Origin: an uncultured Bacilli bacterium
Lineage (GTDB): Bacteria; Bacillota_I; Bacilli_A; RFN20; CAG-826
Assembly (NCBI GenBank): GCA_944351395.1
Contig: CALVPP010000009.1
Span: forward strand, 1 to 34,699
Length of the DNA stretch: 34,699 nt
Direction of reading: 5' to 3'
Shown: in pieces, positions 3,417-32,970 of the stretch
Numbering within the stretch: position 1 is the first letter of the stretch
How the letters are laid out: every line of letters starts with the position of its first letter
The notes under the pieces: generated by a model
Seen by the model: only the letters and a program-made list of their open reading frames with translations
Database searches by the model: none
What the model was told of the DNA's origin: nothing
Position numbers and translations under genes: made by a program

Positions 3417-3480
3417 ATGTAACCTTCTAAATACTTATTTTAGTTTAAAATAAAGAACAAGTCATCAACAAAGACCATTC

Positions 3481-3508
3481 TTGACAAAATTTGCATATAT
3501 TTTATAAT
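3481..3508 (+). promoter_or_regulatory. Sigma-A-type promoter of the ferredoxin gene
   Basis: TTGACA (3481-3486), 16 nt, then TATAAT (3503-3508): a consensus pair ending 27 nt before the ferredoxin ATG, with AGGAGG at 3520-3525. Confidence 0.85.
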
Positions 3509-3535
3509 TACTTACGTCTAGGAGGACGAAAGTTT

Positions 3536-3724
3536 ATGGCAAAAAAAGTCCATGTTAATAAGGATGCTTGCATCGGCTGTGGTCTCTGCACAGGCTTACT
3601 TCCATCCGTCTTCGAATTCGATGATGATGGCAAAGCTAAAGCGAACGATGTCCCAGCAGAAGACGAAGGCTCAATCGCCGATGTCGTCGCTCAGTGCCCA
3701 GTAGGCGCGATCGAAGAAGAATAG
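3536..3724 (+). CDS. fer: 4Fe-4S ferredoxin
   Basis: This is a small soluble electron carrier. From the ATG at 3536 it has 62 residues, the size of the Bacillus-type single-cluster ferredoxin. The ligands are C12-x2-C15-x2-C18 and C54 in the CPVGAI motif, one [4Fe-4S] cluster. The chain is very acidic, as usual. The ATG is favoured by AGGAGG 10 nt upstream; an in-frame upstream extension to 3491 would start inside the promoter and is rejected. It is monocistronic, with its own consensus promoter and a bidirectional terminator after it. The suf genes about 6 kb away could supply its cluster. Confidence 0.93.
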   Translation: MAKKVHVNKDACIGCGLCTGLLPSVFEFDDDGKAKANDVPAEDEGSIADVVAQCPVGAIEEE

Positions 3725-3751
3725 TTAATTCTTCAAAATATTGCAAAAAAG

Positions 3752-3772
3752 AAAAGAGCAATTAGCTCTTTT
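3752..3772. terminator. Bidirectional terminator between fer and the ECF gene
   Basis: Arms AAAAGAGC (3752-3759) and GCTCTTTT (3765-3772) enclose a 5-nt loop, with T-runs on both strands. It serves fer on plus. On minus it overlaps the stop codon of the ECF S-component gene. Confidence 0.85.
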
Positions 3773-14337: not shown

Positions 14338-16143
14338 ATGAAAAAAAGCAAGCTTACATTCGGTCTCGCTTTTACTCTCTTACCACTTCTTGCGGTCGCA
14401 TGTTCCCCAACTGTCGTAGCCGATGATAAGAACATCGTTTCTTTCACCGGTGCGAATGGTGATAAAGTCGAAATTCCAGTCGACGAAATCTATGCGAACT
14501 ACAAAGTCGACTCCGATGGCGTTGAAAGATTTTGGAACGCTCTCGTCGAAGTCGTCGTCCGTAACGAAATGGATAAACCAGAAAACGCTGCAACGAAATC
14601 ATTATGTGAATCTTTAGCACGTAACCGTGTCGAAGGTTCAAAAGAACAAGCTCAAAGCAACGCTGAAGCGAACGGAACGTCCTACGATGAGGAATTTGAG
14701 AACATCCTCAATAGTAACAGTTGTGAAGATGAAGATGAATTATTCGATCTTTACACCTATCAAGAGATGACTAATGAATTGGAAGATGATTTCTTCTCTA
14801 CTGAGAGATTATCTGAAATTCTCGCCGATCAAGATGGTGGTTATCTCGTGACAGAAGTTCCTTATCACGTTCGTCACATCTTAGTGAACGTGACCGCTTC
14901 TATCCCAGAAAATTTAAATATCGCCACGACACCATTCACTTCACAAGAAATTACTGCTGGTGAAGCGAATAAACTCTCAAACGTCGTCGCTGCTCTCGCT
15001 CGTGGTAATCAAACATTTGGTCAAGTCGCTTATCAATATAGCGATGATGCAAGCGGTGATACTTCAAGTCGTAATAATTATGGTGATGTCGGTATCATGG
15101 GTCGTTCAACATCATTCGTAAACGAATTCAAACTTGGTCTTTATACGTATGATTTAATCTATAACTCAGGTAGAGATTCTGACTTAGTCGCTGAAACTTT
15201 ACGCATCGAAAGTGAAGTAAAAACTGACTTCTCAGCTATCGATGGTTTAGATAGCATTGGCACGATTCCATATGGTGCATTCATGGAATTAGGTGAAGTT
15301 GCTAACATTCAAACTTCCGATGATGGTCGTCCAGTGAATAATAACGTCACTCTTTACTACCCAAGAAATATTCTTTTCAACAAATATCTAAATAAACATA
15401 ACGTTAGCATCATCACACCAAATGACGTCGTCGTCGATGAAACCGCTACTACGACTGTCGTAGAAAACTTCGTTGGTGAAGTAAATCCTGAATACGAAGC
15501 TCTTCCACGTTTCAAAGAAATTCAAGGTTTAGGTAACCAAAAAGCTCTCTGTGATGAAAAAGGCAACGTCATCTTAGTCGTCCGTGCTGGTTCTGGCTAT
15601 GAAGGAATTCACTTCATGGTCGTCGAACGCAATTACTTCGACGGTGATGGAACTGGTGATATGGCTACTTTACAAGAATATTACACGACTGCTATCCCAG
15701 GAGAAGAATTATATCCAACTACTTCTACTGGTGCTGATAAAGCGACATTCGTAAATTTCATCCAAGGTAATAACACTACTTATAATACCCGTGCTGAAAC
15801 TGTAAGAAACGCTATCATGGATTACAATCCATACATCACTGATGACATGTATCTTGATTTATTTAACGAACAAAATCTTAAGATTCATGACACCGAATTA
15901 AGTGAGATGATCTTCGAATTCCTCAAAGTGCGTGAAGATGATCAAACTTACACGAGTAATGAAACATTCAGCGATAGCTGGGATACCTACATGAAATTAT
16001 TAACTCTACAACAAGAATTACGTCGTGTTGATGAAAACGGCAAACCAGTCCGTCTCGTCTCCGAAACTTGTGCAGTTCTATTTAGAACTAATCCTGATTC
16101 ACCTGCATTTGAACAAGGAGGTCTCTGCTATTATGCGCAATAA
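14338..16143 (+). CDS. PrsA-like parvulin foldase lipoprotein
   Basis: This is a 601-residue lipoprotein. Residues 1-22 form a signal peptide ending in a lipobox-like AVAC, with C22 the lipidated cysteine. It resembles PrsA/SurA foldases: a SurA_N-like helical part (about 45-165), then a parvulin-type domain starting YHVRHILVNV (176-185), with LARGNQTFGQVAYQYSDD (220-237), YGDVGIMG (248-255) and VNEFKLGLY (261-269). The usual closing strand of parvulin (G-x-H-I-x-x-V) seems to recur as GIHFMVVE near residue 425, implying a large insertion. It has extra extracellular cysteines (for example C90 and C129) and is highly acidic. Good AAGGAGG upstream. The next lipoprotein starts 11 nt before its stop. 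hit and yhaM, which also neighbour prsA in Bacillus, follow. Confidence 0.8.
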   Translation: MKKSKLTFGLAFTLLPLLAVACSPTVVADDKNIVSFTGANGDKVEIPVDEIYANYKVDSDGVERFWNALVEVVVRNEMDKPENAATKSLCESLARNRVEGSKEQAQSNAEANGTSYDEEFENILNSNSCEDEDELFDLYTYQEMTNELEDDFFSTERLSEILADQDGGYLVTEVPYHVRHILVNVTASIPENLNIATTPFTSQEITAGEANKLSNVVAALARGNQTFGQVAYQYSDDASGDTSSRNNYGDVGIMGRSTSFVNEFKLGLYTYDLIYNSGRDSDLVAETLRIESEVKTDFSAIDGLDSIGTIPYGAFMELGEVANIQTSDDGRPVNNNVTLYYPRNILFNKYLNKHNVSIITPNDVVVDETATTTVVENFVGEVNPEYEALPRFKEIQGLGNQKALCDEKGNVILVVRAGSGYEGIHFMVVERNYFDGDGTGDMATLQEYYTTAIPGEELYPTTSTGADKATFVNFIQGNNTTYNTRAETVRNAIMDYNPYITDDMYLDLFNEQNLKIHDTELSEMIFEFLKVREDDQTYTSNETFSDSWDTYMKLLTLQQELRRVDENGKPVRLVSETCAVLFRTNPDSPAFEQGGLCYYAQ

Positions 16144-17821
16144 GAAAATATTAACGCTCACAGCTTTAGGCGCTATCGTACTCACAGGGTGTAGCGAAAT
16201 TAGATCTCGCCCATCCGATTACGATGATCCTATCATTGACGATACGATTCAAGAAGTCGTCAACAACATCAATAGCGTCGTTTACGATGCATTAGATGAA
16301 GCTGGCACGACGAATGAAGAAGTATTAAAACGTGTCAAAGTCACATTTGCTGAATCTATATTTGGCACGCTAGAAGAAATTCGCGACGCTCTTGATAGCG
16401 GTGCTGATAGTGAGGCATTCAAAACATTGAAGGATGCTCATGCATTCTATACTGAAGAAGTTGACGAATCTTTAACTGATGCTGAGAAAAATGCATATTC
16501 CTTCAAACGTTTAGAGTGGTTAGAAGCTCAAATTTCTGAACGCGTCAACAAAGAATTCTATGATTTGATTATGGGTGGTGAGTTCTCGACCGACTCATTA
16601 TTCGATGAAGAAGAATTAGCGAATGATATTCGTTCTCAACTTTATACCGTCGTCGATCCGACGACTGGTGCATATCCTACCACATTCCATAGTGAAGTTC
16701 TCATCCTCCCAAGTATGACAGAAGAAAACGTCACAGAATGGGGTATCCATCTCGAATATTATAATGATTATGTCTTACGTGCACTTGTTCCAGATATATT
16801 CATCGACCTCGCTACTGAGCAATATTTATTCGATGAAAACTATTCTAGTTTAGGAAGAAGTTACGCTCGTAAGGTCAATTATATTGCCATTACCGCTAGC
16901 GAAGAGTTCTCAAACGCTGTTCCTTACCTCATGAGAGAATTTATCGATGAGAACATTCTCGGCGCTGAAGCGACGAAAGAAACGGCAAATTTAGAAATTC
17001 TTGCCAGCGCATGGAGAGGCTATGCCGATGATTACATCGGAAACGCTAGTGAATTGCTAAGTGCTTCCGCAGGTGCTGGCTCATTCGTCAACAAGACGAG
17101 CCGCCACACCATTGGTGATTCTACTATCAACTATTACAGCGGAACTCAATATGGTAACGTCATCGATGATTATGATCTCATCTACGAAGACAACCCACAA
17201 CAAACGAATCAAGAAGTTGAATCTGATTTCACTGGTTCTTATGCTTACACTGCATCGCACGGTCTTGAACTAAAAACTCGTTCCGTCCGTACGACTGACT
17301 ATACGACTGATGGATGGTACATCCAAAATGGTGGCTTAACGAGCTTACCTTCTTGGATTAGAACGCGTCTATTTAATATCGGTGTCGCTAATGGTGTCGA
17401 TACAGTTACAGATGAAAAGGATGCTTCTATTACTGAAGAAAATGTTCGTACTTCGAACTTCGTCCGCAACATCAATGGTTATTACTACCTCCTCCCCGCC
17501 ACTAGCGAGGCTGGAAGTGATGCCAAAGACTTCCTCCTTTACGATAACGATACATCCACCTATTACATCGTCCAAATTGAAGAAGCTGTTTCTTCATCAA
17601 AGATGAACCGCGATAGTCAAAACAACTACACTCATCTCAAAGAAGATGATGGTTGGTTCATGGAAGATGTCGCACGTGAAATCGCTATGACGATGGCTGA
17701 AGGTGGTAGTTATGACGATCAAGCGACACTCTTCTACTTTGAAGAGATGAACATTCAATATTATGATGAGGATCTTTACGACTACTTCGTCGAAACATTC
17801 CCTGATTTGTTTGAAGACTAA
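16133..17821 (+). CDS. Large acidic lipoprotein, possible foldase partner
   Basis: From ATG 16133 this is a 562-residue lipoprotein with a short signal peptide and lipobox LTGC (C20). The mature chain is very acidic and cysteine-free. I do not recognise a catalytic domain. Segments resemble the helical parts of its neighbour, and YYIVQIEEA near residue 490 looks like a closing strand of a foldase domain, so a diverged SurA/PrsA-type chaperone is plausible but unproven. AAGGAGG (16115-16121) lies within the upstream gene and the ATG overlaps it by 11 nt, so the two are translated together. An in-frame upstream extension to 16025 is rejected because the signal peptide begins at 16133. Both genes are rich in C-ending codons (GTC, ATC, AAC, TTC), suggesting high expression. 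A strong terminator follows. Confidence 0.8.
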   Translation: MRNKKILTLTALGAIVLTGCSEIRSRPSDYDDPIIDDTIQEVVNNINSVVYDALDEAGTTNEEVLKRVKVTFAESIFGTLEEIRDALDSGADSEAFKTLKDAHAFYTEEVDESLTDAEKNAYSFKRLEWLEAQISERVNKEFYDLIMGGEFSTDSLFDEEELANDIRSQLYTVVDPTTGAYPTTFHSEVLILPSMTEENVTEWGIHLEYYNDYVLRALVPDIFIDLATEQYLFDENYSSLGRSYARKVNYIAITASEEFSNAVPYLMREFIDENILGAEATKETANLEILASAWRGYADDYIGNASELLSASAGAGSFVNKTSRHTIGDSTINYYSGTQYGNVIDDYDLIYEDNPQQTNQEVESDFTGSYAYTASHGLELKTRSVRTTDYTTDGWYIQNGGLTSLPSWIRTRLFNIGVANGVDTVTDEKDASITEENVRTSNFVRNINGYYYLLPATSEAGSDAKDFLLYDNDTSTYYIVQIEEAVSSSKMNRDSQNNYTHLKEDDGWFMEDVAREIAMTMAEGGSYDDQATLFYFEEMNIQYYDEDLYDYFVETFPDLFED

Positions 17822-20148: not shown

Positions 20149-20926
20149 GTTCGCTTTCCTCCCACCATTTCATAATATCATTTTTATCATAACCTCTTCT
20201 AGACATCCAAACATAGAAATGTTCTTTGTTACAATTTGGTCTTTTAAGTAAAACATTGACAAGTTTTTCTGTTTTTAATTTATCTTCTTCATAGCTGAAG
20301 TGTAATTTATTAATTTCTTCATCGATAAACGATTGCTTAAATTTCTTGTTAATTAAAAAAATACGTATTTTTTGCTTAGCTTTTAAAGGTGGATAACGAT
20401 CAAATTTATGTTTAACTTTTGCAATTATTGCATTTAAATTGTTCTTTTCAATCGACACATCGAAAGGCATTTCTTCATTAAAATAAAACAAACCTTTATC
20501 TCTTAATTTATCTTTTGTAGCATCGTGTGAATAGCCACGCGATAAGTAATATTGTCGATATTCATCCCTTAAAGATAAATCGTCAAAATAACCTAGTTTT
20601 TTAAGTTCTAAACATATTTTTTTGGCTTCTTCGCCACTATAATGTTCTTTTTCAATAAGACGTATTTTAAATGCATAAGTAGATAATCTATGTTTATTTA
20701 AATACTCTTTAAAACGCTTTATCTTCAGATAAGTTTCGTTTTCATCTTTCATCTTCTTTAAGGTATAGAACGAGACTTCTTTACCTTTATAAAGACGATA
20801 GTTGAGAGATATCTCATCATCAAATAAAAGACTAGTGCCATCACTAAATACCGCTAAAACGCCGTTTTTTTGCTTTTTAAGAGCGATAATTTCTATCTTA
20901 CCAGTTTTTCTTGATAGCTCTTTCAT
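20141..20926 (-). CDS. recX: RecX-like regulatory protein
   Basis: RecX proteins limit RecA filament growth. It has 261 residues (Bacillus RecX about 264). After a short beta-rich N-terminus (about 10-50), the chain is built of three-helix repeats: YAFKIRLIEKEHYSGEEAKK near 85-104, LGYFDDLSLRDEYRQYYLS near 111-129, and similar units up to LLKRPNCNKEHFYVWMSRRG near the end. The Y/F-D-D and RGY spacing fits the RecX family, though no absolute motif exists, so the call is moderate. The ribosome site is weak and the ATG lies 29 nt inside the glycosyltransferase gene, suggesting coupled translation. It overlaps yhaM by 8 nt. Confidence 0.7.
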   Translation of the reverse strand: MKELSRKTGKIEIIALKKQKNGVLAVFSDGTSLLFDDEISLNYRLYKGKEVSFYTLKKMKDENETYLKIKRFKEYLNKHRLSTYAFKIRLIEKEHYSGEEAKKICLELKKLGYFDDLSLRDEYRQYYLSRGYSHDATKDKLRDKGLFYFNEEMPFDVSIEKNNLNAIIAKVKHKFDRYPPLKAKQKIRIFLINKKFKQSFIDEEINKLHFSYEEDKLKTEKLVNVLLKRPNCNKEHFYVWMSRRGYDKNDIMKWWEESEHD

Positions 20927-22082
20927 AAACTTTCTTTATGCGTTCGTAAAATGTTTCGATTGAATATTCATCGAGCTTTTTAAAAGCAAGTTCCTTCATC
21001 TTGTCTTTGCTAATTTCATCCATATCGATTATCGTCTCTAGTTTACGAATAAAATCTTCTTCGCTATTGAAGAAATAACCGCTTCGGCCTGAGTCTATTA
21101 AATCATAAAGGTTATCATCATAACGAACGAGAAGTATTCTTTTCGCTGCCATCGCTTCTAAATAGGTAAGACCTTGAGTTTCAGAAGTCGATGCAGAGAC
21201 GTATATATCAGCAAGATTATAATAAAATCCAACCTCGTCATTCATCACTTTACCTAAAAATAATATTTCGTCTTTTAAACCATATTTAATCGAAGTTGCT
21301 TCTAATTCGTCTTTATGCGGTCCGTCGCCGACGATGAGAAGTTTCATTTTTAAATTTTTATGTTTTTTTCTAAAACTATAATAATAATCGATGACGACAT
21401 CGACACTCTTGGCTTTGTCAACTCTGCCTAAACATAATAACGTAATAGTGTTTTCATCTATACCTAATTCTTCTTTTTTCTTCTTAAGAGCGTCACTATC
21501 TTGGCTCTCTGGCAAAAAACGTGTGAAGTCAATACCAGTTGGAACGATATTGATATATGATTCAATACCTATTTGTCTAAGATAATTTTTTATTTTTTTT
21601 GAAGGAGTAATAAATTCATCTGCCATATCAGCGATAAAGCCGACGAACCACCTAATTGCATTCTTAGCTATACGATCAAAATGACCTTTGAACATATCAC
21701 TAAAATAATAGGTATAATCTTCGTATTGCGTATGGTAAGTATATACTGCTGGAACGTGTAGCAAATAAGAGATGATGCGACCGTAAAATCCGACACCTAA
21801 ATCGCTTTGGACGTGGATGACATCTGGTTTAAATTTTTTCACATATTTAGTCACTTTTGAATGATAGAACCATGTAAAGCGATAGTTAAACATCTTCTTC
21901 ATGACAAGACCAGGTATACGAACGATATCTTTTTCATAAGTTATTTTGTTCGTAAAAGGATTTGTGGTAATGACTAATACTTCATGACCATGTGCTTCAA
22001 AAGCACGTTTCATGTACAAAGTAGATGTTGCCACGCCATTGATTTCTGGTGGATATGTATCAGTGCAAATAACTATACGCAT
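20898..22082 (-). CDS. GT4 glycosyltransferase, probable diacylglycerol glucosyltransferase
   Basis: A 394-residue GT-B fold enzyme. TDTYPPEINGVATS (7-20), VIHVQSDLGVGFYGR (88-102) and YHTQYEDYTYYF (116-127) match the GT4 group that makes monoglucosyl-diacylglycerol in Mollicutes and Bacilli (alMGS-like). The nucleotide-sugar site shows GRVDKAKS (219-226), VGDGPHKDEL (251-260) and the E-x7-E pair E301/E309. It probably acts at the inner membrane face by amphipathic helices. TAGGAT precedes the ATG, 9 nt after the flippase-like gene, which suggests synthesis and translocation of a glycolipid by one operon. The sugar (glucose or galactose) cannot be read from sequence. Confidence 0.87.
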   Translation of the reverse strand: MRIVICTDTYPPEINGVATSTLYMKRAFEAHGHEVLVITTNPFTNKITYEKDIVRIPGLVMKKMFNYRFTWFYHSKVTKYVKKFKPDVIHVQSDLGVGFYGRIISYLLHVPAVYTYHTQYEDYTYYFSDMFKGHFDRIAKNAIRWFVGFIADMADEFITPSKKIKNYLRQIGIESYINIVPTGIDFTRFLPESQDSDALKKKKEELGIDENTITLLCLGRVDKAKSVDVVIDYYYSFRKKHKNLKMKLLIVGDGPHKDELEATSIKYGLKDEILFLGKVMNDEVGFYYNLADIYVSASTSETQGLTYLEAMAAKRILLVRYDDNLYDLIDSGRSGYFFNSEEDFIRKLETIIDMDEISKDKMKELAFKKLDEYSIETFYERIKKVYERAIKKNW

Positions 22083-22091
22083 ATTAAAATC

Positions 22092-23558
22092 CTATAACTT
22101 ATTATCGATATCAATCTCGGTAAAAGGTTTATCTTTAGAGGCTATTTTAGTCTCTTTCATCTTGTCTTTTTTAAGTTCACTATAATAAGATGTGCTATCG
22201 AAATTGATAATAAGTGAATCTTCATCTTCGATGACATCTTGTTTTTTACGTCTAGTGAGATGCAGTTTCTCACGTAATGCTTTTCTAGATAACTGTGAGG
22301 TTTCATATTGAATGTTTGAAGATATACGCCGCTCTTCAAATGTACGTAGTTGTAGTTCTAGGTAAGTCTGACGCACTGACGTCTTATCGACATCAGTATC
22401 GGTGGGCGAAGCTTTATAGAAGGCAGTGACGAGGCCGGCGACGAACAATGGTACAGTATAAGTTGAAAAACGCCAAATGATTAAAGATGCATTAGTGACT
22501 GCTTGAGTAGTATAAAAGCCAGCTCCCGGATTCAAATTGTTATAAAACATCGTCGAGAAGAAAATTTCAGAAGCACCAGCAGTACCAGGAAGAGGGATCC
22601 AGCCTGTCACCATTTGGTGATAACTTGACATGAAACAAGCATCGAAGAATGATTGAACACCTGTATTATTTAAACCATCTAAAGCAAGGCCGGCAAAATA
22701 AGGAATAGAATATTTTATTGTCATAGTAATGCCAAAGCATAAAATGATGAGCAATGTAAATGGAATATTAGACTGCAAACGTCTAAGTTCAATTTTAAAA
22801 TTTTCTACTTGTATTCTTAATGCTTCTCTCTTTTTATCAGGATCTCGAATTAAATGTAATTTAGCAAAGAGGTTAATACCGTGTTTCATAACAAAGTTAT
22901 GAATATGATGGTTATATGACATTAAGAACAAAATGCCAATCAAAGATATATTGATGATGAAGCCGATGATAGTTAATGGCCAGATAGGCACACTTACATC
23001 CATGATGACGAAAGAACCAATGGAATTGATGAGGTCATATTTGAAGATGAAAGACAGTGCGCCATAAATGATAAGAACCGCTTGGTAAGTAATAAAAAAC
23101 ATGACCATGATAGATGCAGCATTAGAAATTGGTACACCTTGCTTAGAGAAAGTGCGAGCTTGAAATATTTGTTCACCCGTACCAGCAGGCAAAATACCAT
23201 CATAAAAAGTACCTACGAACTTATTCGCTATTGCCTGGTGAAATTTATATTTTCTAGTATAAAGTCTTGCGTAACAAAAGATGATGAATGATTCGACGAT
23301 AAAATATAAACACATCATGCCAGCGATGACAAGTATATAACGCCAATCCGTGCCAGTGAATGCGTTGACGACATCATTAAATGTATTGAATAAAGTTAAC
23401 GCTAAAGAGGCAGCTGTAAGAGCGAGGATGACGAAGATGTTAATCGTATACCTAGCAAGAGGAGACATGCGTTTCTTCTTACGATTTAATTCCCCCTCTT
23501 TTAATGCTTTTTTTGTTTCTTCATCTAGATGTTCATTTTGATTGTTATTAAATTCCAT
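22092..23558 (-). CDS. Flippase-like membrane protein (LPG synthase TM-region family)
   Basis: This 488-residue polytopic protein belongs to the UPF0104/MprF transmembrane-domain family, which includes flippase domains for lysyl-phosphatidylglycerol and other lipid-linked substrates. About eight helices lie between residues 33 and 390. Family features are the ILPAGTGEQIFQARTF stretch (about 120-135) and the GWIPLPGTAGASE segment (about 315-327). A charged C-terminal tail of about 95 residues (400-488) is cytosolic and lacks any synthetase domain. No clear Shine-Dalgarno precedes the ATG. Position next to the GT4 gene suggests glycolipid flipping. Confidence 0.83.
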   Translation of the reverse strand: MEFNNNQNEHLDEETKKALKEGELNRKKKRMSPLARYTINIFVILALTAASLALTLFNTFNDVVNAFTGTDWRYILVIAGMMCLYFIVESFIIFCYARLYTRKYKFHQAIANKFVGTFYDGILPAGTGEQIFQARTFSKQGVPISNAASIMVMFFITYQAVLIIYGALSFIFKYDLINSIGSFVIMDVSVPIWPLTIIGFIINISLIGILFLMSYNHHIHNFVMKHGINLFAKLHLIRDPDKKREALRIQVENFKIELRRLQSNIPFTLLIILCFGITMTIKYSIPYFAGLALDGLNNTGVQSFFDACFMSSYHQMVTGWIPLPGTAGASEIFFSTMFYNNLNPGAGFYTTQAVTNASLIIWRFSTYTVPLFVAGLVTAFYKASPTDTDVDKTSVRQTYLELQLRTFEERRISSNIQYETSQLSRKALREKLHLTRRKKQDVIEDEDSLIINFDSTSYYSELKKDKMKETKIASKDKPFTEIDIDNKL

Positions 23559-23601
23559 AAAATTTGGGTGACATCTATTTTAGACGTAGTAGTCATAAAA
23601 A

Positions 23602-24183
23602 TTAATAGATGAAACGATCCTCCCCTTCAAAATTACGGACGTAAGAGATGGTACTCACGAGCGAAAAAGGTGCGATGAATATCGATAAAGTTGGGACCGC
23701 TAATACGAAGGTAGACCCACCAATCATAAATAGATTCATCACTAATATATACACGCTTAATCCAATCGTCAGGACGATGAGGATTGTACACATAAGAGCG
23801 ATAGGAGCAACTTTTCTAAAAACTTCCATTCCGAATAATAAAGTAAATACAGCGATGACGAATGAATAAACGCTTAATATCGCAGAGATGATGATGATAC
23901 CTAAATCATATCGAGGCATGCATGCAATATAGATAAAAAGCATCGACATCGTCAAAGGAATGATAGTTGCACCAAAAGATAGCCAAAATTGTTCATTTTT
24001 GCCAAATTTGAACATGAGCGCGCTCGCTAATAAAAAAGCACCAGCAGGGTAACCTAAATAGCCAAATACACTAGCGCCAGAAAAAATACAATTCCATATC
24101 GCATCAAAAAAGAGAACTGCACTTCCAATTAAAGCGAAGACAAGGCCAATGTTCCGTGTTTTACTATTTTCAATGAGATGCAT
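23602..24183 (-). CDS. Six-helix membrane protein, unknown function
   Basis: A 193-residue integral membrane protein with about six hydrophobic segments separated by very short loops and a charged C-terminal tail (RNFEGEDRF). I see no recognised motif. AAAGGAAAA precedes the ATG, with promoter TTGCAA-17-TAAATT upstream. It lies 43 nt before the flippase-like gene and is probably first in that operon. A structural or accessory role in glycolipid handling is a guess from position only. Confidence 0.7.
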   Translation of the reverse strand: MHLIENSKTRNIGLVFALIGSAVLFFDAIWNCIFSGASVFGYLGYPAGAFLLASALMFKFGKNEQFWLSFGATIIPLTMSMLFIYIACMPRYDLGIIIISAILSVYSFVIAVFTLLFGMEVFRKVAPIALMCTILIVLTIGLSVYILVMNLFMIGGSTFVLAVPTLSIFIAPFSLVSTISYVRNFEGEDRFIY

Positions 24184-24198
24184 AATTTTCCTTTATTT

Positions 24199-24227
24199 AA
24201 TTTATCAAATTAACAATTGTTTTGCAA
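24199..24227 (-). promoter_or_regulatory. Promoter of the glycolipid operon
   Basis: Minus: TTGCAA (24227-24222), 17 nt, TAAATT (24204-24199), just upstream of the six-helix protein gene. Confidence 0.55.
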
Positions 24228-24229
24228 TC

Positions 24230-24258
24230 TTACAAAGATGTAAATTAAATGATACAAT
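24230..24258 (+). promoter_or_regulatory. Promoter of the ABC exporter genes, leaderless geometry
   Basis: TTACAA (24230-24235), 17 nt, TACAAT (24253-24258), then 8 nt to the ATG at 24267. No ribosome site lies between. Confidence 0.55.
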
Positions 24259-24266
24259 CATCTAAT

Positions 24267-26051
24267 ATGAAACAATATTTTCTTTTCGTTTCAAAACTAT
24301 TGAAAGAATATAAAGGGCGTTACGCCCTATGTTTTATACTTCAATTCGTAAGTGTTTTCTTCACGTTATTGAGCACCTTTTTATCGAAGATCTTAGTGGA
24401 TTGTTTAACAGGCGATATTTTCGAAATTGAAAAGATAGGTGTAGTCGAAAATACGATTACAAACATTCTAGGTGGTCCAAATCATCTCATCGCTAATTAC
24501 TGGCTTTTTGCCATCATTATTTTTACTGTTGGTCTCGCTATCACTTCCACTAATATCGCTAGAACATTATTAAACGCAAACGTCACAGTCGGCATTTCAA
24601 AGAAGATGAGACTACTTTTATTCGACCATGTGCAAAGGATGCCTTTTTCTAAAGTTAGAGGATTTAAAAGTGGCGACCTTATTCAAACTTGTACTAGAGA
24701 TGAACAAATTCTAAGAAGGTTTGCTATTCAAGAAACTTTACTTATTACGTATACAATATTTCTCGTCGTCTTGAGTTTCTTATTGCTTCTTTCTATCAAC
24801 TGGCTTATCGCTGTGACGAGCATCGTCCTCATACCATTCTTATTCATCTATTCCTTTTTCATCATAAAAATCGTAAGAAAGAGATATCGCGAAACTGATG
24901 ATTCTGAAGGTTTACTAACTGCTAAAATTGAAGAGAATATTTCGGCTGTGAGGTTAGTTAAAGCCTACAATAACGAAAAATATGAAATAGAAGACTTCCA
25001 AAAATATCTCGATGATTATCGAAAAAAATTCGTGAGATGGCGTTTTATGTCTTCTCTTTTCTTCTCCACTAGTGACATATTTATCTTCGGACAAATCACT
25101 CTCACTACTGTTTTAAGTCTCTACTTAACTATTATCGGTACAGTTTCAGTTGGTACATTCGTCATTTCTTTTACTTTTGTCAATATGATAATTTGGCCCG
25201 TTCGCGATGTAGCGACAACTTTATCTAATATGGCTCGAGCGTTCGTCAGTGTCGACAGGATGAACATCGTCTTAAATAGTGAAAGTGAGAACACCAAAAT
25301 TGGTTTAACTCCTCCCATCAAAGGTCGTATAGTCTTTGACCACGTCTACTTTCGTTATGTCGACGATAAAGAAGTTTTAGAAGATATTAGTTTTGATATT
25401 GAGCCTGGAGAAACGATCGCAATCATGGGTAAAACTGGAAGCGGTAAATCCACTCTCATCGAACTTTTATCTCGCCTATATGATGTGAGTAAAGGTCATA
25501 TTTATATCGATAATATCGATATCAGCAATATTCAAAAAGAATATTTAAGGCACAATGTTGCAATCGTCTTACAAGAACCTTTCCTCTTTTCAAAAACAAT
25601 TGAAGACAATTTAAAGATATCAAATGAGAATTTAAGACATGACGATGTTGAAATTGCTACACGCATTGCTAATGTCGATGAAACTATTTCCTCTTTTGAA
25701 GAAGGTTATGATACTCCGATTGGCGAAAAAGGAGTCACTTTATCTGGTGGACAAAAACAAAGACTTGCAATCGCTAGAACTTTGCTCATGGATGCACCAA
25801 TACTCGTCTTCGATGATTCATTAAGTGCATTAGATACTGAAACCGATTTAAAAATTAGATCTAATTTAAAAAATAGAAAGAAAAAACAGACGACAATTAT
25901 CATCACTCATCGTGTCGCTACTGCTAAAGATGCCGATAGAATATTAGTTCTAAATGAAGGTAAGATTGAGGCGTTAGGTAGGCACGATGATTTAATAAAA
26001 CAAGATGGTTTATATAAACGCATTTACGAAATACAGACGAGGATGGTATAA
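24267..26051 (+). CDS. ABC exporter half-transporter, degenerate ATPase-site subunit
   Basis: A 594-residue TMD-NBD half-exporter. Six helices lie in residues 20-310. The NBD shows Walker A GKTGSGKST (388-396), LQEPFLF Q-loop (435-441), canonical LSGGQ (492-496) and Walker B ILVFD followed by Asp517 where the catalytic Glu is expected; the H-loop reads ITHRV. This Asp is the mark of the non-catalytic site in heterodimers such as BmrCD and TM287/288. I choose ATG 24267: an in-frame ATG at 24249 would lie before or within the -10 box. Its partner starts 5 nt after its stop. Substrate unknown; lipid or drug export is typical. Confidence 0.9.
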   Translation: MKQYFLFVSKLLKEYKGRYALCFILQFVSVFFTLLSTFLSKILVDCLTGDIFEIEKIGVVENTITNILGGPNHLIANYWLFAIIIFTVGLAITSTNIARTLLNANVTVGISKKMRLLLFDHVQRMPFSKVRGFKSGDLIQTCTRDEQILRRFAIQETLLITYTIFLVVLSFLLLLSINWLIAVTSIVLIPFLFIYSFFIIKIVRKRYRETDDSEGLLTAKIEENISAVRLVKAYNNEKYEIEDFQKYLDDYRKKFVRWRFMSSLFFSTSDIFIFGQITLTTVLSLYLTIIGTVSVGTFVISFTFVNMIIWPVRDVATTLSNMARAFVSVDRMNIVLNSESENTKIGLTPPIKGRIVFDHVYFRYVDDKEVLEDISFDIEPGETIAIMGKTGSGKSTLIELLSRLYDVSKGHIYIDNIDISNIQKEYLRHNVAIVLQEPFLFSKTIEDNLKISNENLRHDDVEIATRIANVDETISSFEEGYDTPIGEKGVTLSGGQKQRLAIARTLLMDAPILVFDDSLSALDTETDLKIRSNLKNRKKKQTTIIITHRVATAKDADRILVLNEGKIEALGRHDDLIKQDGLYKRIYEIQTRMV

Positions 26052-26056
26052 ATTCT

Positions 26057-27988
26057 ATGGCTTTCGCATTTGAAGAAGAAGCATTACCGAAGAAGCTTAA
26101 TCTCTACGTCTGGAGAAGAATATTTTCTTACGCTTTAAGACATTATAAATTGCTTTTGCTCATTCTTCTTTTCGTCCTCGTCGTCACTTTTTACGATAGT
26201 GCATTCATTCCTCTTATGAATAAAGCCGCTATCGATAGCGTCGAAAATATATTAGTTAATAATGTCAATGATTTGGTCATTAAGATTGATATATATGGCT
26301 TAACATTTAATACATCGTTCTGGGGTTATATTTTCATGTTAATTGGTGGCATTATCGTTCGTTCATTCGCTATCATGGGTAACTTCTTCCTCATGAATTA
26401 TGTCGCTATGTGCATCGTCATGGACTTAAGAATGGATGGTTATAAACGTATCCAAGAATTATCTTTCTCTTACTTCGACCGCACTGCTTCTGGTTGGCTC
26501 ATCGCTAGATTACAAAATGATGCCAGTAGCGTTGGCGACTTACTTTCAAGTGGTCTTATCAATCTCATTTGGATTTTCTTCGAAATCATATTCACTCTCA
26601 TCACGATGTTCACCGTCTCTTGGCAAATGTCGCTCGTCATCCTCATCACTGTACCATTTCTCATGATTATTTCTCCTATTTTCGAAATAACGATACTCAA
26701 GAAACATCGTGTAGCACGAAGTGCATATTCAAATTATGTCCGTTGGCTCGCCGAGTGCATCAGCGGAGCGCTTACAATTAAATCGTTAGCTATCGAAGAT
26801 AAAGTATATGGCGAAGCAAACGATGTGACAGAAGATATTAGAAAGAAGATGTTTGGAGCAAGAAAAGTAAACGCCTTCTTTCAACCTTCTATTTCTTTAC
26901 TTTCTGCCATCGCTACTGCCCTCGTCATCGTCTTTGGCATATACGTCTTCAATGCGCAAGATGCAACTAGCATCGTCTCTATTTCAACTCTCGTTTTAGC
27001 GTTAGGCTTTGTTTCAAAAATATATAGTCCACTACAATCATTTTTTGAAATATTTGCTGAATTTATGGCACAACAAGCTAGTGCAGAAAAATTACTCGCA
27101 CTCATCGACACTAAACCAACTATCGTCGATAAAAAAGAAGTCGTCGATAAATATGGTGATATATTTAATCCAAAAAAAGAAAATTATGAACCGATGAATG
27201 GCGATATCAATTTTGATCACGTTTCATTCTCATATTTAAAAGACCAAGAAGTAATTCACGATTTAAATGTCCATATCGAAAAAGGTACATCGTTAGCAAT
27301 CGTCGGCGAGACAGGAAGTGGCAAATCGACATTCGTCAATCTTCTCGCTAGATTCTATGAACCAACAGAAGGTTCCATTAAGATTGATGGCGTAGATTAT
27401 CGTGAAAAATCAGTTGGTTGGTTAAGATCAAATATTGGTTTTGTCCAACAAAATCCCTTCATTTTCCGCGGCACTTTCTTAGATAACATCCGCTATGGCA
27501 AATTGGATGCAACATTAGAAGAAGTAAAAAAAGCAGCGATGCTAGTCGATATTGATTCATTCATCATGTCTTTTAAAGACGGATATAATCATCTTCTAAC
27601 TGATGGGGGAAATGAATTGTCCACTGGTCAAAAACAACTCATCTCTTTTGCTAGAGCTATCATAAGAAATCCCCGCATCATGATTTTAGACGAAGCGACA
27701 TCAAGCGTCGACACGGAGACAGAATTAACGATACAAAGTGCGATTAACATCATCTTGCACGGTAGGACGAGCATCATCATCGCCCATAGACTTAGCACAA
27801 TCGTGAATGCTAAACGTATCTTAGTCATGAAAGATGGGCGTGTCGTAGAAGACGGTAATCATAAATCACTCATGCAAAAAGGAGGTTATTATCATCGCCT
27901 CTATATGAATCAATTTAAAGAATTAACATTAGACGAGCAAATATCTACCTATGAAGCAGAACTTCGAGGACAAAAATTAGATGAATGA
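26057..27988 (+). CDS. ABC exporter half-transporter, catalytic subunit
   Basis: A 643-residue TMD-NBD half-exporter, partner of the preceding gene. Six helices span about 30-330, with a large outward loop between helices 1 and 2 (about 60-88). Walker A GETGSGKST (417-425), Q-loop VQQNPFIF, the signature altered to LSTGQ (521-525), Walker B IMILDE with catalytic Glu546, and H-loop IAHRLS. The altered signature is the partner half of the degenerate site formed with the first subunit. An A/G-rich stretch (GAGGATGG) at the end of the first gene serves as ribosome site. It ends with 0 nt to the convergent membrane-protein gene and no clear terminator. Confidence 0.92.
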   Translation: MAFAFEEEALPKKLNLYVWRRIFSYALRHYKLLLLILLFVLVVTFYDSAFIPLMNKAAIDSVENILVNNVNDLVIKIDIYGLTFNTSFWGYIFMLIGGIIVRSFAIMGNFFLMNYVAMCIVMDLRMDGYKRIQELSFSYFDRTASGWLIARLQNDASSVGDLLSSGLINLIWIFFEIIFTLITMFTVSWQMSLVILITVPFLMIISPIFEITILKKHRVARSAYSNYVRWLAECISGALTIKSLAIEDKVYGEANDVTEDIRKKMFGARKVNAFFQPSISLLSAIATALVIVFGIYVFNAQDATSIVSISTLVLALGFVSKIYSPLQSFFEIFAEFMAQQASAEKLLALIDTKPTIVDKKEVVDKYGDIFNPKKENYEPMNGDINFDHVSFSYLKDQEVIHDLNVHIEKGTSLAIVGETGSGKSTFVNLLARFYEPTEGSIKIDGVDYREKSVGWLRSNIGFVQQNPFIFRGTFLDNIRYGKLDATLEEVKKAAMLVDIDSFIMSFKDGYNHLLTDGGNELSTGQKQLISFARAIIRNPRIMILDEATSSVDTETELTIQSAINIILHGRTSIIIAHRLSTIVNAKRILVMKDGRVVEDGNHKSLMQKGGYYHRLYMNQFKELTLDEQISTYEAELRGQKLDE

Positions 27989-28468
27989 TTAATTATCTTT
28001 CTTGGTGAAAAAAATCGCCTTCACCACTAATGTAATTGCTAATAAGAATAAGATAGAAGCACTTACGATTGGGCCAAAGGACCAAGCAATATTTGCACCA
28101 TCAATTCCTTGCATCGCTAAAGCGATATTACGTGTAAAAAGAATACCTAAACCACTACCAAAATAAATTAATGCGACGATGAAGTTATACATCCTTTTAT
28201 CATTCACGAGGAAAACGAGCAAAGACCCGACTAGAGGTAATAACCAGAAGATGAGTAAAACAAAATTAAAATTAAATGGAACGAGGATATGAGTGCTACT
28301 CGCGTTTCCACCAAAAACGAGTATGTAACTAGCTACGTAAGATGTCGTATCGCCATCGTTAAAACTAATTGCAGGTAAGAACATCATGATGAGAGCAATG
28401 ATAGCCAAACCACCAACGATATTCATAATTATTTTCCAAACTTTTTGATCATTTACTCGTTCTTTCAT
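27989..28468 (-). CDS. Four-helix membrane protein, unknown function
   Basis: A 159-residue membrane protein with about four hydrophobic helices (roughly 12-32, 65-88, 92-112 and 126-152) and an outer loop after helix 1 (about 35-60) containing GDTTSYVASY. I recognise no motif. GGAG lies 9 nt upstream of the ATG. It follows the phosphoesterase by 28 nt and is probably last in that operon. Its stop touches the ABC exporter stop. Confidence 0.7.
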   Translation of the reverse strand: MKERVNDQKVWKIIMNIVGGLAIIALIMMFLPAISFNDGDTTSYVASYILVFGGNASSTHILVPFNFNFVLLIFWLLPLVGSLLVFLVNDKRMYNFIVALIYFGSGLGILFTRNIALAMQGIDGANIAWSFGPIVSASILFLLAITLVVKAIFFTKKDN

Positions 28469-28496: not shown

Positions 28497-29384
28497 TCAT
28501 CTTAGAGTTACTTGCACAATTTCTGGTGGACAATTATAACGAATTGCTAAGACATTATTCATCCCTAACCCAGCATTTATGTAAAGATGACTAGTGTGAC
28601 CTTCATAAGTTTCTACATATTCTCCTCTTACATAATGCGGAAATAAACCTTGTCCGTCGATGATGGGAACACCAATTCCTAACATGTTTATTTGTCCGCC
28701 ATGTGTATGACCGCTAAACACGTAATCAAAATTGTATTCTTTATAAATTGGCATGTATTCTGGGCGATGTGCTAATAGGATGTTAACATCATCTTCATCT
28801 ACTGGTAATTGTTTTACTAAATCATCAAGAAATGGTCTTACATCGACATCTTTTTGATTTAATTCTAATTGTTCTTTCTTGATATCGTGTAACCCATAGA
28901 TATTTATATCTATTCCATACCAAGAAAATGTTGCTACTTCGTCTTCTAACATCACCACACCATATCTATCTAAAAGTGTATATAATCTTTCCGGTTCATT
29001 TGCGTAATATTCATGATTCCCTCTTATGTAATAAATAGGAATACCATCTAGCGATTTCAATATTTCTTCAAAATCTTTTAAATCATCTTCGCTAGTGTAT
29101 TGGTCGATAATATCGCCAGTTAAGAAGACGATATCTTTTTCAACATCATTGATCGCGTCGATTAAATTTGTGTTAGGATAATCTAAACCATGATTATGAA
29201 AATCTGATAATTGCATTATTTTTAATGGTTCATCGATATGAGCGTCGTCTACTTCATAACGAGTGATAAGCAATGTGTCATCGTGTCCTAAGCCAAAAGA
29301 TAGGCATACACATCCAACGATGATAAGAAAGATGCCTAAGATTCTTAATAGAACATTTTTAAAAGTATGCATCACTTGAGCCAT
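28497..29384 (-). CDS. Membrane-anchored calcineurin-like metallophosphoesterase
   Basis: A 295-residue phosphoesterase. A hydrophobic segment (13-33) serves as N-terminal anchor, so the catalytic domain is extracytoplasmic. All metal motifs are present: SDFHNHG (60-66; D61, H63), GDIID (90-94), RGNHEYY (121-127), AHRPEY with H206, and GHTHGGQ (225-231). The arrangement is like YkuE/YaeI phosphoesterases, some of which act on lipid head groups such as UDP-diacylglucosamine; the substrate here is unknown. AGGA precedes the chosen ATG at 29384, which overlaps the hydrolase by 13 nt; a second in-frame ATG at 29372 has no ribosome site. Confidence 0.9.
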   Translation of the reverse strand: MAQVMHTFKNVLLRILGIFLIIVGCVCLSFGLGHDDTLLITRYEVDDAHIDEPLKIMQLSDFHNHGLDYPNTNLIDAINDVEKDIVFLTGDIIDQYTSEDDLKDFEEILKSLDGIPIYYIRGNHEYYANEPERLYTLLDRYGVVMLEDEVATFSWYGIDINIYGLHDIKKEQLELNQKDVDVRPFLDDLVKQLPVDEDDVNILLAHRPEYMPIYKEYNFDYVFSGHTHGGQINMLGIGVPIIDGQGLFPHYVRGEYVETYEGHTSHLYINAGLGMNNVLAIRYNCPPEIVQVTLR

Positions 29385-30337
29385 AAATCTATCCTATCTT
29401 CATCTATTTTACATGCCTTTTTCCAATTGATATTTTCGATAGCAACTTTTCTTTCTAATCCAGTTAAAGTAGAAGCTTTTCTTACCTCCTCCATCACTAC
29501 TTTTTCTCCTTCATTTGTCAAATATGGATTATGATAACTATTTTCATATTGATAGGTCGTAACGTTAGAAAAATTGTTTATTTTATTTAAAACTTTTTCT
29601 CGTTCCCTTAAAGGAACAATATCATCTTTATCACCATAAACTAAAATATAAGGAATGTTTTTTCTTCTTTTCATCACTTTAACAATATTTAAGAGTGAAA
29701 GGCGAGGATATAAACAATGATCACGCTCGATGATTAAATATGCGATAATTCTCAATTTCTTAGGCAAATATTCTTTCATAAAATTAAGGTCATAAAAAGG
29801 TGCAATAGCAATGACTTTCTTCACTATTTTTTCTTCTAGAAAATAACTTCCCATAATAGCAGTAAAAGCCCCATAAGAATGACCCATAATAGTCACTTCT
29901 TTATCTTTCAATTTTGGTTCAACAATCAAAAATTGTTCATAAATCTTTTTAAAACAATGTGCACCTTCTAAAAGTGATTTAAAAGAGTGACCACTACTAC
30001 GACCCATTCCATACATATCATAAGTAAGGACGAAATATCCATCTCTAACTAATTTTGCAATTGTAGACATATAGGCAAGATGCCCTGCACCTATACCGTG
30101 AAGAAACAAAATATAACCTTTAGAAGTATCTTTGCCCCAATACTTTGCACCTAATATGCTCTTATGCTTTCCAAGACGTAAATCGTACTTTTTAGAATGT
30201 ATATTTTCATAGTCACATTCGTCTTCATATTTAAAATCTTCTACATAGTCAAAACGTGGTAATTTAAAAGAAATATAGACGATGAACGCAATAAGAGAAA
30301 TAGGAATGATCAAGACGAGTAATGATAAATAGACCAT
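29372..30337 (-). CDS. Membrane-anchored alpha/beta hydrolase
   Basis: From ATG 30337 the protein has 321 residues. Residues 1-27 form a membrane anchor. The hydrolase fold shows the oxyanion loop LHGIGAGH (80-87), the nucleophile elbow GHSYG (153-157, Ser155), an acid in YGDKDD (235-240) and His270 in SYHNPY: a full S33/monoacylglycerol-lipase-like triad. An in-frame extension upstream to 30520 would run through the divergent acyltransferase gene and has no start signal, so it is rejected. There is no Shine-Dalgarno; GATAAT lies 6 nt before the ATG. It is first in the run with the phosphoesterase and the four-helix protein. Substrate unknown; an esterase or deacylase role is possible given the neighbouring acyltransferase. 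Confidence 0.85.
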   Translation of the reverse strand: MVYLSLLVLIIPISLIAFIVYISFKLPRFDYVEDFKYEDECDYENIHSKKYDLRLGKHKSILGAKYWGKDTSKGYILFLHGIGAGHLAYMSTIAKLVRDGYFVLTYDMYGMGRSSGHSFKSLLEGAHCFKKIYEQFLIVEPKLKDKEVTIMGHSYGAFTAIMGSYFLEEKIVKKVIAIAPFYDLNFMKEYLPKKLRIIAYLIIERDHCLYPRLSLLNIVKVMKRRKNIPYILVYGDKDDIVPLREREKVLNKINNFSNVTTYQYENSYHNPYLTNEGEKVVMEEVRKASTLTGLERKVAIENINWKKACKIDEDRIDLWLK

Positions 30338-30343
30338 AAAAGT

Positions 30344-30349
30344 ATTATC
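30344..30349 (-). promoter_or_regulatory. -10 box 6 nt upstream of the hydrolase ATG
   Basis: Minus: GATAAT followed by ACTTTT and ATG; no ribosome site. The -35 region is T-rich only. Confidence 0.4.
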
Positions 30350-30399
30350 TAACAGATGAGAATAAAAAACGATGATTTTTATTCTTAATCTTTTTGTTT

Positions 30400-30405
30400 T
30401 ATAAT
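30400..30405 (+). promoter_or_regulatory. -10 box 7 nt upstream of the acyltransferase ATG
   Basis: TATAAT (30400-30405), then TTTTAAC and ATG at 30413. There is no ribosome site, so transcription would begin at or next to the ATG. The -35 is weak. Confidence 0.5.
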
Positions 30406-30412
30406 TTTTAAC

Positions 30413-31345
30413 ATGCAGATAGCAACTATCCAACGTGCACCTTATAAAACCAAAAGGAAAAGAATTATCGAGATAGATTTTTTGCGTGGTGTTTGTGTCA
30501 TCCTCATGATCGTCGACCATTTCTTTTACGATTATGGCTTTCTCATGCCTAGTATTTTTGGTGAGATAACCGGACCTGCTCCGCTACTAGCATTACATAA
30601 TTGTGCTACTTGGTACTGGTTTTGGTCGGTGAGAGTCATTACTCGCTATGTAGTCATCGCTCTATTCTTCTTTTTGAGTGGCTTATCTACTCAATTTTCA
30701 AGAAGTAACGTCAAAAGAGGAGCTATTTATTTCTTCGTCGGTCTCATCATTTCGTTTACGTCTTATCAAATTGATGTTTGTTATAACATTGAGGGCTTAG
30801 CGATGATCATCAATACTATTCTTACTTTTGGTCTTGCTATATTAATATATGGCTTATACCAAATGTTCATTAATTTCATATTTAAGAAAAACAAATATCC
30901 AACCATCATCATCTCAACGTTAATCGGTGTCGCTATTATCATCGCTGGTTATTGTTCGCCTTATTTTTTCTCCGATGAATCAACTTTTTATTATCAAGAT
31001 ATCACTTTTAACAATTTGATGTGTTCCCTCTTCGGATACGGCAAATTTGGTCCAAATGGTGACTACATGCCACTTTTCCCTTATCTTGGTTACATTTTCT
31101 TAGGAAGTGCGATATCCGCACTTATTTATAAAGATAGAAAATCTCTTTTGACTCCTCTCATCTTAAAATACGAAAACATGAACGAAAGTATACTAAAAAA
31201 GACGTTAAATGGTCCAATATATTTTGCTAAAGGTGTTGGTTTTATGGGCCACCACGCTTTTATCATCTATTTTGCTCACCAAGTTATTCTCATCATCATC
31301 GCTTGTATCGTCATGCTATCATTAGGATATACTTTAAATCTATGA
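30413..31345 (+). CDS. Transmembrane acyltransferase (HGSNAT/DUF1624-like)
   Basis: A 310-residue polytopic protein with about seven to eight helices. The opening RIIEIDFLRGVCVILMIVDH (17-36), with D35-H36, is the hallmark of the heparan-alpha-glucosaminide N-acetyltransferase-like catalytic family (DUF1624), which carries acyl groups across the membrane from a cytosolic acyl-CoA. Further conserved-looking residues are LFGYGKFGPNGDYMPLFPYL and the terminal MGHHAFIIYFAHQV (278-291). There is no Shine-Dalgarno and TATAAT lies 7 nt before the ATG. The ligase gene starts at the ATGA overlap with its stop, implying a coupled pair. The acceptor is unknown; a surface glycan or glycolipid is likely. 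Confidence 0.85.
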   Translation: MQIATIQRAPYKTKRKRIIEIDFLRGVCVILMIVDHFFYDYGFLMPSIFGEITGPAPLLALHNCATWYWFWSVRVITRYVVIALFFFLSGLSTQFSRSNVKRGAIYFFVGLIISFTSYQIDVCYNIEGLAMIINTILTFGLAILIYGLYQMFINFIFKKNKYPTIIISTLIGVAIIIAGYCSPYFFSDESTFYYQDITFNNLMCSLFGYGKFGPNGDYMPLFPYLGYIFLGSAISALIYKDRKSLLTPLILKYENMNESILKKTLNGPIYFAKGVGFMGHHAFIIYFAHQVILIIIACIVMLSLGYTLNL

Positions 31346-32970
31346 GAAAAGATTATGAATTGACACTTTACGAATCATTAAGAAGAACGGCATTAAAATA
31401 TCCAAAATATCGCGCCTTACATTTTGAAGGCCATTTTATATCTTATGAAAGGATGCTTCATCGAGTAGATTTATACGCTACAAATTTAGTGAAATTAGGC
31501 ATTAAAAAAGATGATTGCATAACACTTTGCCTTCCTAACGTTCCAGGTGCCATTTATTTACTTTATGCCCTTAACAAGATTGGTGCAAAACTCAGTCTAG
31601 TACATCCACTGATGAATAAATTTATTCTTAAAAATACGATGATGAAAACATCTTCACATATCGTCTTCGTCTTAGACACGATGAAAGAAGAATTTTTAGA
31701 TTTAGAAAAAGATGAAAATTATCCTATCAAAGTCGCCATAGTCGATGTCGCAAACGATTTACACCTATTTAAACGCATCGGATATAAACTTATCAATAGA
31801 AAGAAATTAAAAATGAGTAAACCTTCGCTAAGTTCAAAAATATTATCGAAAGGTAAAATAGAATCGATAGAAATAGACGATGATATACATAACGATCGTT
31901 TCTATCTACAATCTGGTGGCACATCAGGTGCTTCGAAGACAATTGCTTTATCTAACTTAAACATAAACGCGAACGTACGACATTTTTTCAAATTATTAGA
32001 TTTAAAAACACCTAAAAATCAATATATGCTTGCAGTCTTACCAATGTTCCATGCTTTTGGTCTATGTATGGGCATTCACGTCCCACTTTATTTTGGTGGC
32101 GTTGATATGCTCATGCCAAAATTTAATGCTAAAAAAGTAGCGTCATTAATCAAACATAAACATTTATCATTTATCATCGGTATTCCATTACTCTACCAAA
32201 AACTTCTAAGAGAAAAAACATTTGACAACAAAGGATTAAAATATCTAAATGTTTGCTTTGTTGGGGGTGATTTTGTCGACCAAAAGATTATCGACGAATT
32301 CAACGATATTTGCGCAAAACGCCACTCAAAAGCTAGATTATATCGCGGTTATGGTCTAACAGAATTAAGTGGTGTCGTCTCTCTTAATACGCATCGTGAA
32401 CACGACCTCTCTAGCGTTGGTAAGGTTCTAGATGACATCGATGTGATGATTCGTTCTGAGGATGGGAAAAAAAGATTAAAAGATGAAGAAGATGGTCTCA
32501 TTTATCTAAGCGGAGAAACGCTTATGAATGGTTACTTAAATAATAACGATAATTCTTCTTATTTTATAGATGAGAAGGGTCTTAGATATTTTAATACAGG
32601 TGATTATGGTCACATAACAAAAGACCGTTTTTTAATCTACAAACAAAGAGCCAAAAGCATCATTAAAGTAAAAGGTATAAATGTCTTCCCTAACGAAATA
32701 GAAGACGCTATTAAATCATTGGATTTCGTTCACGCTGTAAAAGTAGTAGGTATTCCTGATGAAGATTTTGCATATAAAATTTGTCTATTTATCGTTAAAA
32801 ATAGAAACGCTAAACAAGTGATGACAGATGAACAAATAAAACAATACATCGACGACAAATGTGGTAAATACGCTAGACCACATATCATAAAATATATTGA
32901 CAAGATGCCATTTACAAACATTGGCAAAGTTGATGAGAATGGATTGATAAAATACATGAAATATTATTGA
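31342..32970 (+). CDS. AMP-forming acyl-CoA synthetase-like ligase
   Basis: A 542-residue class I adenylate-forming enzyme. The ATG at 31342 overlaps the acyltransferase stop (ATGA); an in-frame extension to 31303 is rejected. The phosphate loop reads SGGTSGASK (191-199), with YRGYGLTELSG (335-345), FNTGDYG (417-423), the hinge region KQRAKSIIKVKG, and the C-terminal catalytic lysine K529 in NIGKVDENG. It probably activates a carboxylic acid to acyl-AMP and then to a thioester. The acyl chain cannot be read; no acyl carrier protein gene is nearby. Position suggests it supplies the donor for the upstream membrane acyltransferase. Confidence 0.9.
   Translation: MRKDYELTLYESLRRTALKYPKYRALHFEGHFISYERMLHRVDLYATNLVKLGIKKDDCITLCLPNVPGAIYLLYALNKIGAKLSLVHPLMNKFILKNTMMKTSSHIVFVLDTMKEEFLDLEKDENYPIKVAIVDVANDLHLFKRIGYKLINRKKLKMSKPSLSSKILSKGKIESIEIDDDIHNDRFYLQSGGTSGASKTIALSNLNINANVRHFFKLLDLKTPKNQYMLAVLPMFHAFGLCMGIHVPLYFGGVDMLMPKFNAKKVASLIKHKHLSFIIGIPLLYQKLLREKTFDNKGLKYLNVCFVGGDFVDQKIIDEFNDICAKRHSKARLYRGYGLTELSGVVSLNTHREHDLSSVGKVLDDIDVMIRSEDGKKRLKDEEDGLIYLSGETLMNGYLNNNDNSSYFIDEKGLRYFNTGDYGHITKDRFLIYKQRAKSIIKVKGINVFPNEIEDAIKSLDFVHAVKVVGIPDEDFAYKICLFIVKNRNAKQVMTDEQIKQYIDDKCGKYARPHIIKYIDKMPFTNIGKVDENGLIKYMKYY

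Follow-up and report, generated by a model that had tools for sequence, protein, structure and literature searches.

A recurrent acyltransferase-ligase gene pair as a candidate surface acylation module in uncultured Bacilli

Two adjacent genes of an uncultured Bacilli bacterium encode a transmembrane acyltransferase and an AMP-forming acyl-CoA ligase. Based on sequence comparisons, we conclude that they form a real module, which would be a form of TmAT-based surface acylation that brings along a ligase for making the donor. Surface acylation as the outcome is suggested by analogy with the mechanism of the TmAT family. No description of such an acyltransferase-ligase pair was found in the literature searched, which covered few subscription journals. 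The genes are located in the window, which is the whole stretch of 34,699 nucleotides that was analyzed, on contig C9 of a host genome (G000) of 1.05 Mb that is 99.5% complete. The pair and its nearest features are as follows:

30413..31345, + strand: compact transmembrane acyltransferase of the HGSNAT_cat/TmAT superfamily, 310 aa, module gene 1 (Pfam PF07786 and conserved TmAT residues)
31342..32970, + strand: AMP-forming acyl-CoA ligase of the ANL superfamily, long-chain-acyl-CoA-ligase-like, 542 aa, module gene 2 (PF00501, PF13193, motifs and Foldseek)
31342..31345, + strand: ATGA stop/start overlap (read from the sequence)
29372..30337, - strand: membrane-anchored alpha/beta hydrolase, divergent, genus-level neighbour (Abhydrolase_1, 69 bits)
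28497..29384, - strand: metallophosphoesterase with one N-terminal TM segment, YaeI-like, genus-level neighbour (PF00149, 79 bits)
27989-28468, opposite strand to the pair: small membrane protein with four segments

The open reading frames, the Pfam matches and the sequence itself agree with the earlier note, which had described an HGSNAT-like acyltransferase and an AMP-forming ligase sharing an ATGA overlap at 31342-31345. The acyltransferase stop codon TGA (31343-31345) overlaps the ligase ATG (31342-31344), which suggests coupled translation of the two genes. The identical 4-base overlap was observed in three genomes of the sister genus and in two further genera. The mechanical ORF list puts the ligase start at TTG 31303; the ligases of relatives begin at ATG. 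The acyltransferase ATG is located at 30413, and position 30338, at which the range in the earlier note began, is intergenic. Positions 20898-28468 contain a GT4-like glycosyltransferase and an MprF/UPF0104-like membrane protein, together with small membrane proteins and an ABC exporter pair, all kept beside the module across the genus. At 14338-17821, two lipoprotein-like proteins are encoded in tandem, each about 600 aa long and with a lipobox-like N terminus; the mechanical ORF list shows the start of the second overlapping the preceding gene.

Recurrence of the pair in relatives, which the earlier note had proposed as a check, was strong. In a survey of 58 relatives, the ligase was located directly downstream of the acyltransferase and on the same strand in 27 of the 29 genomes that carry the latter; G018 contains an additional pair, the acyltransferase of which escaped the single-sequence search. 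Class-wide, the two genes were adjacent in 34 of 38 acyltransferase-bearing genomes out of 247 sampled, with clear acyltransferases scoring above 180 bits and every other genome at most 25 bits. The named genome collection was scanned with a ligase profile from nine closer sequences. Among the 80 loci selected there on the ligase only, 73 had the acyltransferase immediately upstream. Simple ORF calling revealed 68 of these and a six-frame search 5 more, and the gap is at most 69 nt in the 68 measured loci. The remaining seven are four Clostridial ligases (L206, L207, L218 and L221), two loci cut by contig ends (L196 and L217) and one broken locus (L209). The carriers are dozens of mostly uncultured bacteria from gut, rumen and sediment, and include Bacilli, Izemoplasmatales, genomes labelled Erysipelotrichia and Tenericutes, Mycoplasmatota strain zrk2 and Clostridia such as Pumilibacter. 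Both genes are kept but located apart in G214, G286 and G044. An arrangement that recurs in about 85 non-duplicate loci is more than chance.

The acyltransferase of the window matched HGSNAT_cat (PF07786, formerly DUF1624) with 62 bits, as compared to a gathering cut-off of 22, and PF07786 was matched by 28/28 of the pair homologues (22/28 also matched Acyl_transf_3). The residues D22, R25, H36, G90 and Y286 were invariant in all 28, and F85 and R102 were present in 26 and 27, respectively. The marks of the TmAT superfamily are DxxR in TMH1, FxxxxG in TMH2, Arg in TMH3 and Tyr in TMH9 (PMC12423673). All four are present in the acyltransferase, with R102 assigned to TMH3 and Y286 to TMH9 by sequence position. 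The invariant H36 occupies the AT3-type DxxRx10H position, and the TMH1 Asn of HGSNAT proper is absent. The superfamily has a core fold of 10 TM helices; the confident AlphaFold model (pLDDT 89) displayed about eight long helices, and fewer than ten of its TM helices were clear. A Foldseek search of this model against the PDB and viral libraries gave no significant match (the best relevant one was GWT1, TM-score 0.31, E 4), and the sequence profile found no relative in the PDB. Against a two-sequence AT3 alignment, the profile reached a probability of 13.6%, with the GRHS-Y-H segment aligned.

Some acyltransferases are found without an intact linked ligase. No family ligase was detected at the thresholds used in the acyltransferase genomes G024, G162 and G227, and none is linked to the acyltransferase in G286, which belongs to the same genus as G015. 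In G015 itself, the linked ligase (L088:7218-8744, contig C8) has lost the P-loop and the C-terminal catalytic Lys and is placed on a very long branch; it is likely a dead enzyme that still adjoins the acyltransferase. An intact relative of the ligase (L087) is encoded elsewhere in that genome. These cases suggest that the acyltransferase may accept acyl-CoA from an unlinked ligase.

The ligase of the window matched AMP-binding (PF00501, 170 bits) and AMP-binding_C (PF13193, 40 bits). Motifs A3, A5, A7 and A8 were intact, with 27-29 of 29 rows agreeing at most key positions, and Lys529 of A10 was present in 28/29; the enzyme thus retains the P-loop, YGxTE, TGD, Arg436 and Lys529. The A4 motif reads FHxFG in 28/29 rows, which is the form of acyl-/aryl-CoA ligases, and Foldseek retrieved acyl/aryl-CoA ligases at E about 1e-42. 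The top NCBIfam models were long-chain-fatty-acid CoA ligases for the window ligase, for L187 from Mycoplasmatota and for the Clostridial L205, all below the cut-off. For the window ligase, the best scores against the long-chain (FadD) equivalog or subfamily models were 242 bits with a cut-off of 766 and 241 bits with a cut-off of 476.

Gene content was judged by family searches. No ketoacyl synthase was found in the window genome, and the same holds for almost all of the 44 relatives tested. A PBP transpeptidase was likewise not found in the window genome. Thus, the host is probably a wall-less fatty-acid auxotroph, the fatty acids of which must be imported. Loss of peptidoglycan has been predicted for some related uncultured orders (PMC10868615). 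Whether the pair goes along with wall loss was also considered: PBPs were present in 3/24 genomes with the pair and in 8/20 others, which does not establish such a link.

We consider it reasonably probable from the genomic evidence that the ligase makes the acyl-CoA that the acyltransferase uses on the outer side. The cytoplasmic ligase would convert a free carboxylic acid to acyl-CoA with ATP, the membrane acyltransferase would take up this acyl-CoA from the cytoplasmic side, and the acyl group would cross the membrane to an acceptor outside the cytoplasm, where it would be joined to a hydroxyl or amino group. In this scheme, we infer both the hand-over of acyl-CoA from ligase to acyltransferase and the transfer across the membrane. 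TmAT enzymes use acyl-CoA directly, without a carrier. The earlier note had reported no carrier protein gene, and this was borne out: in 145 loci, no small ORF of the ACP kind was found, the criteria being a length of 60-120 aa and a G/E-x-D-S-L/I/V motif. The ACP of the host genome (93 aa) is encoded on contig 19, away from the pair. Direct hand-over of acyl-CoA is thus the simplest reading. Outside the window, at G000:C6:31384-32307, a protein of about 672 aa matched both AMP-binding and PP-binding, and an AMP-binding protein of similar size is present in many relatives of the reduced lineage.

For the donor, we see about an even chance that it is a fatty acyl group, most likely imported and of medium or long chain. 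Three lines lean this way: the long-chain NCBIfam models, the acyltransferases found beside related ligases (see below) and the need of the host to import its fatty acids. The acceptor would most likely be a glycolipid or another membrane lipid of these mostly wall-less cells, although we propose a lipid only tentatively; among the flanks surveyed, no acceptor-making gene was consistently linked to the pair. A further reading, which we find quite unlikely, is that a fatty-acyl TmAT with its own ligase works from the outside on acceptors anchored in the membrane. These would be glycolipids of the outer leaflet or, alternatively, lipoproteins acylated at their free amino terminus. If true for lipoproteins, the pair would represent an unknown apolipoprotein N-acyltransferase of wall-less Bacilli.

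Related ligases without the TmAT partner adjoined another acyltransferase in 9 of the 20 loci examined, as a raw count. This supports the hypothesis that the ligase supplies the acyltransferase next to it, and hints that the donors are fatty acyl groups. Within the nine, L253 is on a long branch and the genome of L256 (G214) contains a TmAT elsewhere. The neighbour is a PlsC-type protein (PF01553) at L241:2997-3653 and L242:6071-6664, and a TMEM164-family protein at L256:6011-6877. A standalone CoA-dependent acyltransferase of the 2-oxoacid-dehydrogenase type (PF00198, about 250-300 aa, without a lipoyl domain) is located beside the ligase in L239, L240, L248, L249, L251 and L253, an apparently undescribed pairing. 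Finally, a distantly related AMP-forming ligase adjoins an Acyl_transf_3 membrane acyltransferase at L255:4210-7019 and L091:4084-6890, and is possibly a second pairing of a ligase with the TmAT superfamily. These two loci were not counted as partner exchange because their ligases are placed on a very long branch.

The earlier note had described a divergent membrane-anchored hydrolase and an outward-facing phosphoesterase. Both are present and divergent, with one N-terminal hydrophobic segment each, and the flanking charges of the phosphoesterase suit an outward orientation; those of the hydrolase, with positive residues after the segment, suit a cytoplasmic domain if anything. The phosphoesterase matched PRK11340 (YaeI) with 85 bits, which is under the cut-off. 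The suggestion that these two enzymes remove the transferred groups fared poorly, since they adjoin the pair only in the genus of the window. In three lineages, the pair is flanked by membrane-anchored alpha/beta hydrolases that are unrelated or distantly similar to one another: in 4 genomes of the window genus, in 6 loci of the L069 group and in Clostridia (L200, L201, L205, L214 and L227). Such neighbours would suit either the removal of groups or the supply of free acid to the ligase. In one lineage, six loci have a PAP2-type lipid phosphatase upstream of the pair, and one also precedes the unlinked acyltransferase in L257. In the Clostridial locus L193, a protein of 1049 aa that combines a TIR domain with many Sel1 repeats is encoded directly upstream of the pair (786-3935), and is possibly a defence gene.

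The main alternative concerns the acid and the acceptor. The acid could be a short-chain, dicarboxylic or aromatic one present in the gut or sediment, and it could be put on an exposed polysaccharide or glycolipid sugar, as by the AT3 O-acetylases but with an unusual acid. The best Foldseek matches of the ligase were MatB (malonate) and 4-coumarate ligases, these and luciferase folds ranking as high as the fatty acyl ones, and the hydrolases that flank the pair in Clostridia are of the esterase type (BD-FAE/Abhydrolase_3). Such a reading also agrees with known TmAT/AT3 proteins, which are mostly sugar-modifying and in some cases use succinyl-CoA (PMC12423673). However, the long-chain models were top-scoring for three divergent members of the ligase family, lipid acyltransferases of the PlsC and TMEM164 types adjoin related ligases, and no conserved polysaccharide locus was found next to the pair. 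We regard this alternative as somewhat unlikely.

It is very unlikely that the pair serves the uptake of fatty acids, with the ligase trapping acids as acyl-CoA and the membrane protein aiding entry or exchange without forming a surface ester. The hosts lack fatty acid synthesis and need import, as this explanation would predict. However, DegV (FakB-type) fatty-acid-binding proteins were identified in all 44 genomes, with or without the pair, suggesting that an acyl-phosphate route is probably available and that the module ligase is probably not the general route of uptake. Furthermore, the pair is absent from half of the equally auxotrophic relatives, and the catalytic TmAT marks are strictly conserved.

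The pair INDEPENDENCE from synteny: across 85 non-duplicate loci, counted only if in tandem with the acyltransferase first, the neighbours belong to 36 families upstream and 39 downstream. Flanking genes share the strand of the pair about half the time (40/81 upstream and 40/82 downstream). An amidohydrolase downstream in 13-15 loci and a converging TetR gene in 17 loci look lineage-specific. The protein distances of the acyltransferase and the ligase are correlated (Mantel r 0.81, with 0/1000 permutations as high), to which host kinship contributes. In the ligase tree, the acyltransferase-linked ligases cluster, with four label changes as compared to a mean of 23 in shuffles (rough bootstrap). 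Since the pair stays together while nearly all surroundings change, it looks like one acylation machine. The proposal of the earlier note that the two genes form one module is thus strongly supported: the pair is conserved in at least two classes although its flanks change, and the motifs are intact. Inherited synteny without functional meaning is scarcely credible, for although many of the loci derive from related uncultured Bacilli, the flanking families differ and the pair holds in both Bacilli and Clostridia between distant members of about 30% identity.

TmAT proteins are usually described as using general pools of acyl-CoA. If two genes are conserved as a unit and one of them is a dedicated ligase, a specific, non-acetyl donor would be predicted, and the selection of the acyl group by TmAT proteins could be studied in a simple system. 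The pair points to a modification of the surface in bacterial orders for which metagenomes are almost the only source, and is a candidate source of acylated lipids in wall-less cells. Some carriers are recorded as strains and are possibly testable: Pumilibacter intestinalis CLA-AA-M10 (L201), Pumilibacter muris CLA-AA-M08 (L214) and Mycoplasmatota bacterium zrk2 (L187).

Among known systems, the acyltransferase resembles the TmAT superfamily (HGSNAT, the AT3 proteins OafB/OacB and GWT1/PIG-W) in its Pfam family, the DxxR and FxxxxG motifs, the TMH3 Arg, the TMH9 Tyr and the AT3-style His. It differs in that the family is compact (260-380 aa), has His for the Asn of HGSNAT and is partnered by a dedicated acyl-CoA ligase, of which no mention was found beside TmAT/AT3 proteins in the TmAT/AT3 literature searched.

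The dlt system consists of DltA, the carrier DltC, the MBOAT protein DltB and DltD, and the A domains of DltA and of NRPS enzymes have an amino-acid-binding Asp, seen as the FD form of A4. The earlier note had likened the pair to dlt, and as a logic the likeness holds: an adenylating enzyme is located beside a membrane acyltransferase for surface modification. The parts do not correspond, as the ligase lacks the amino-acid-binding Asp and the pair has neither a carrier protein nor an MBOAT. An amino acid donor such as D-alanine was considered and is unlikely, given FH rather than FD in A4 (28/29) and no carrier.

The Aas protein of E. coli is an acyl-ACP synthetase fused to a 2-acyl-glycerophosphoethanolamine acyltransferase. 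Like the pair, it couples an AMP-forming ligase to an acyltransferase that consumes the product, and the window ligase matched NF006386 with 160 bits. Unlike Aas, the pair consists of two genes, has an acyltransferase of unrelated fold, probably uses CoA rather than ACP and probably acts on the outer face.
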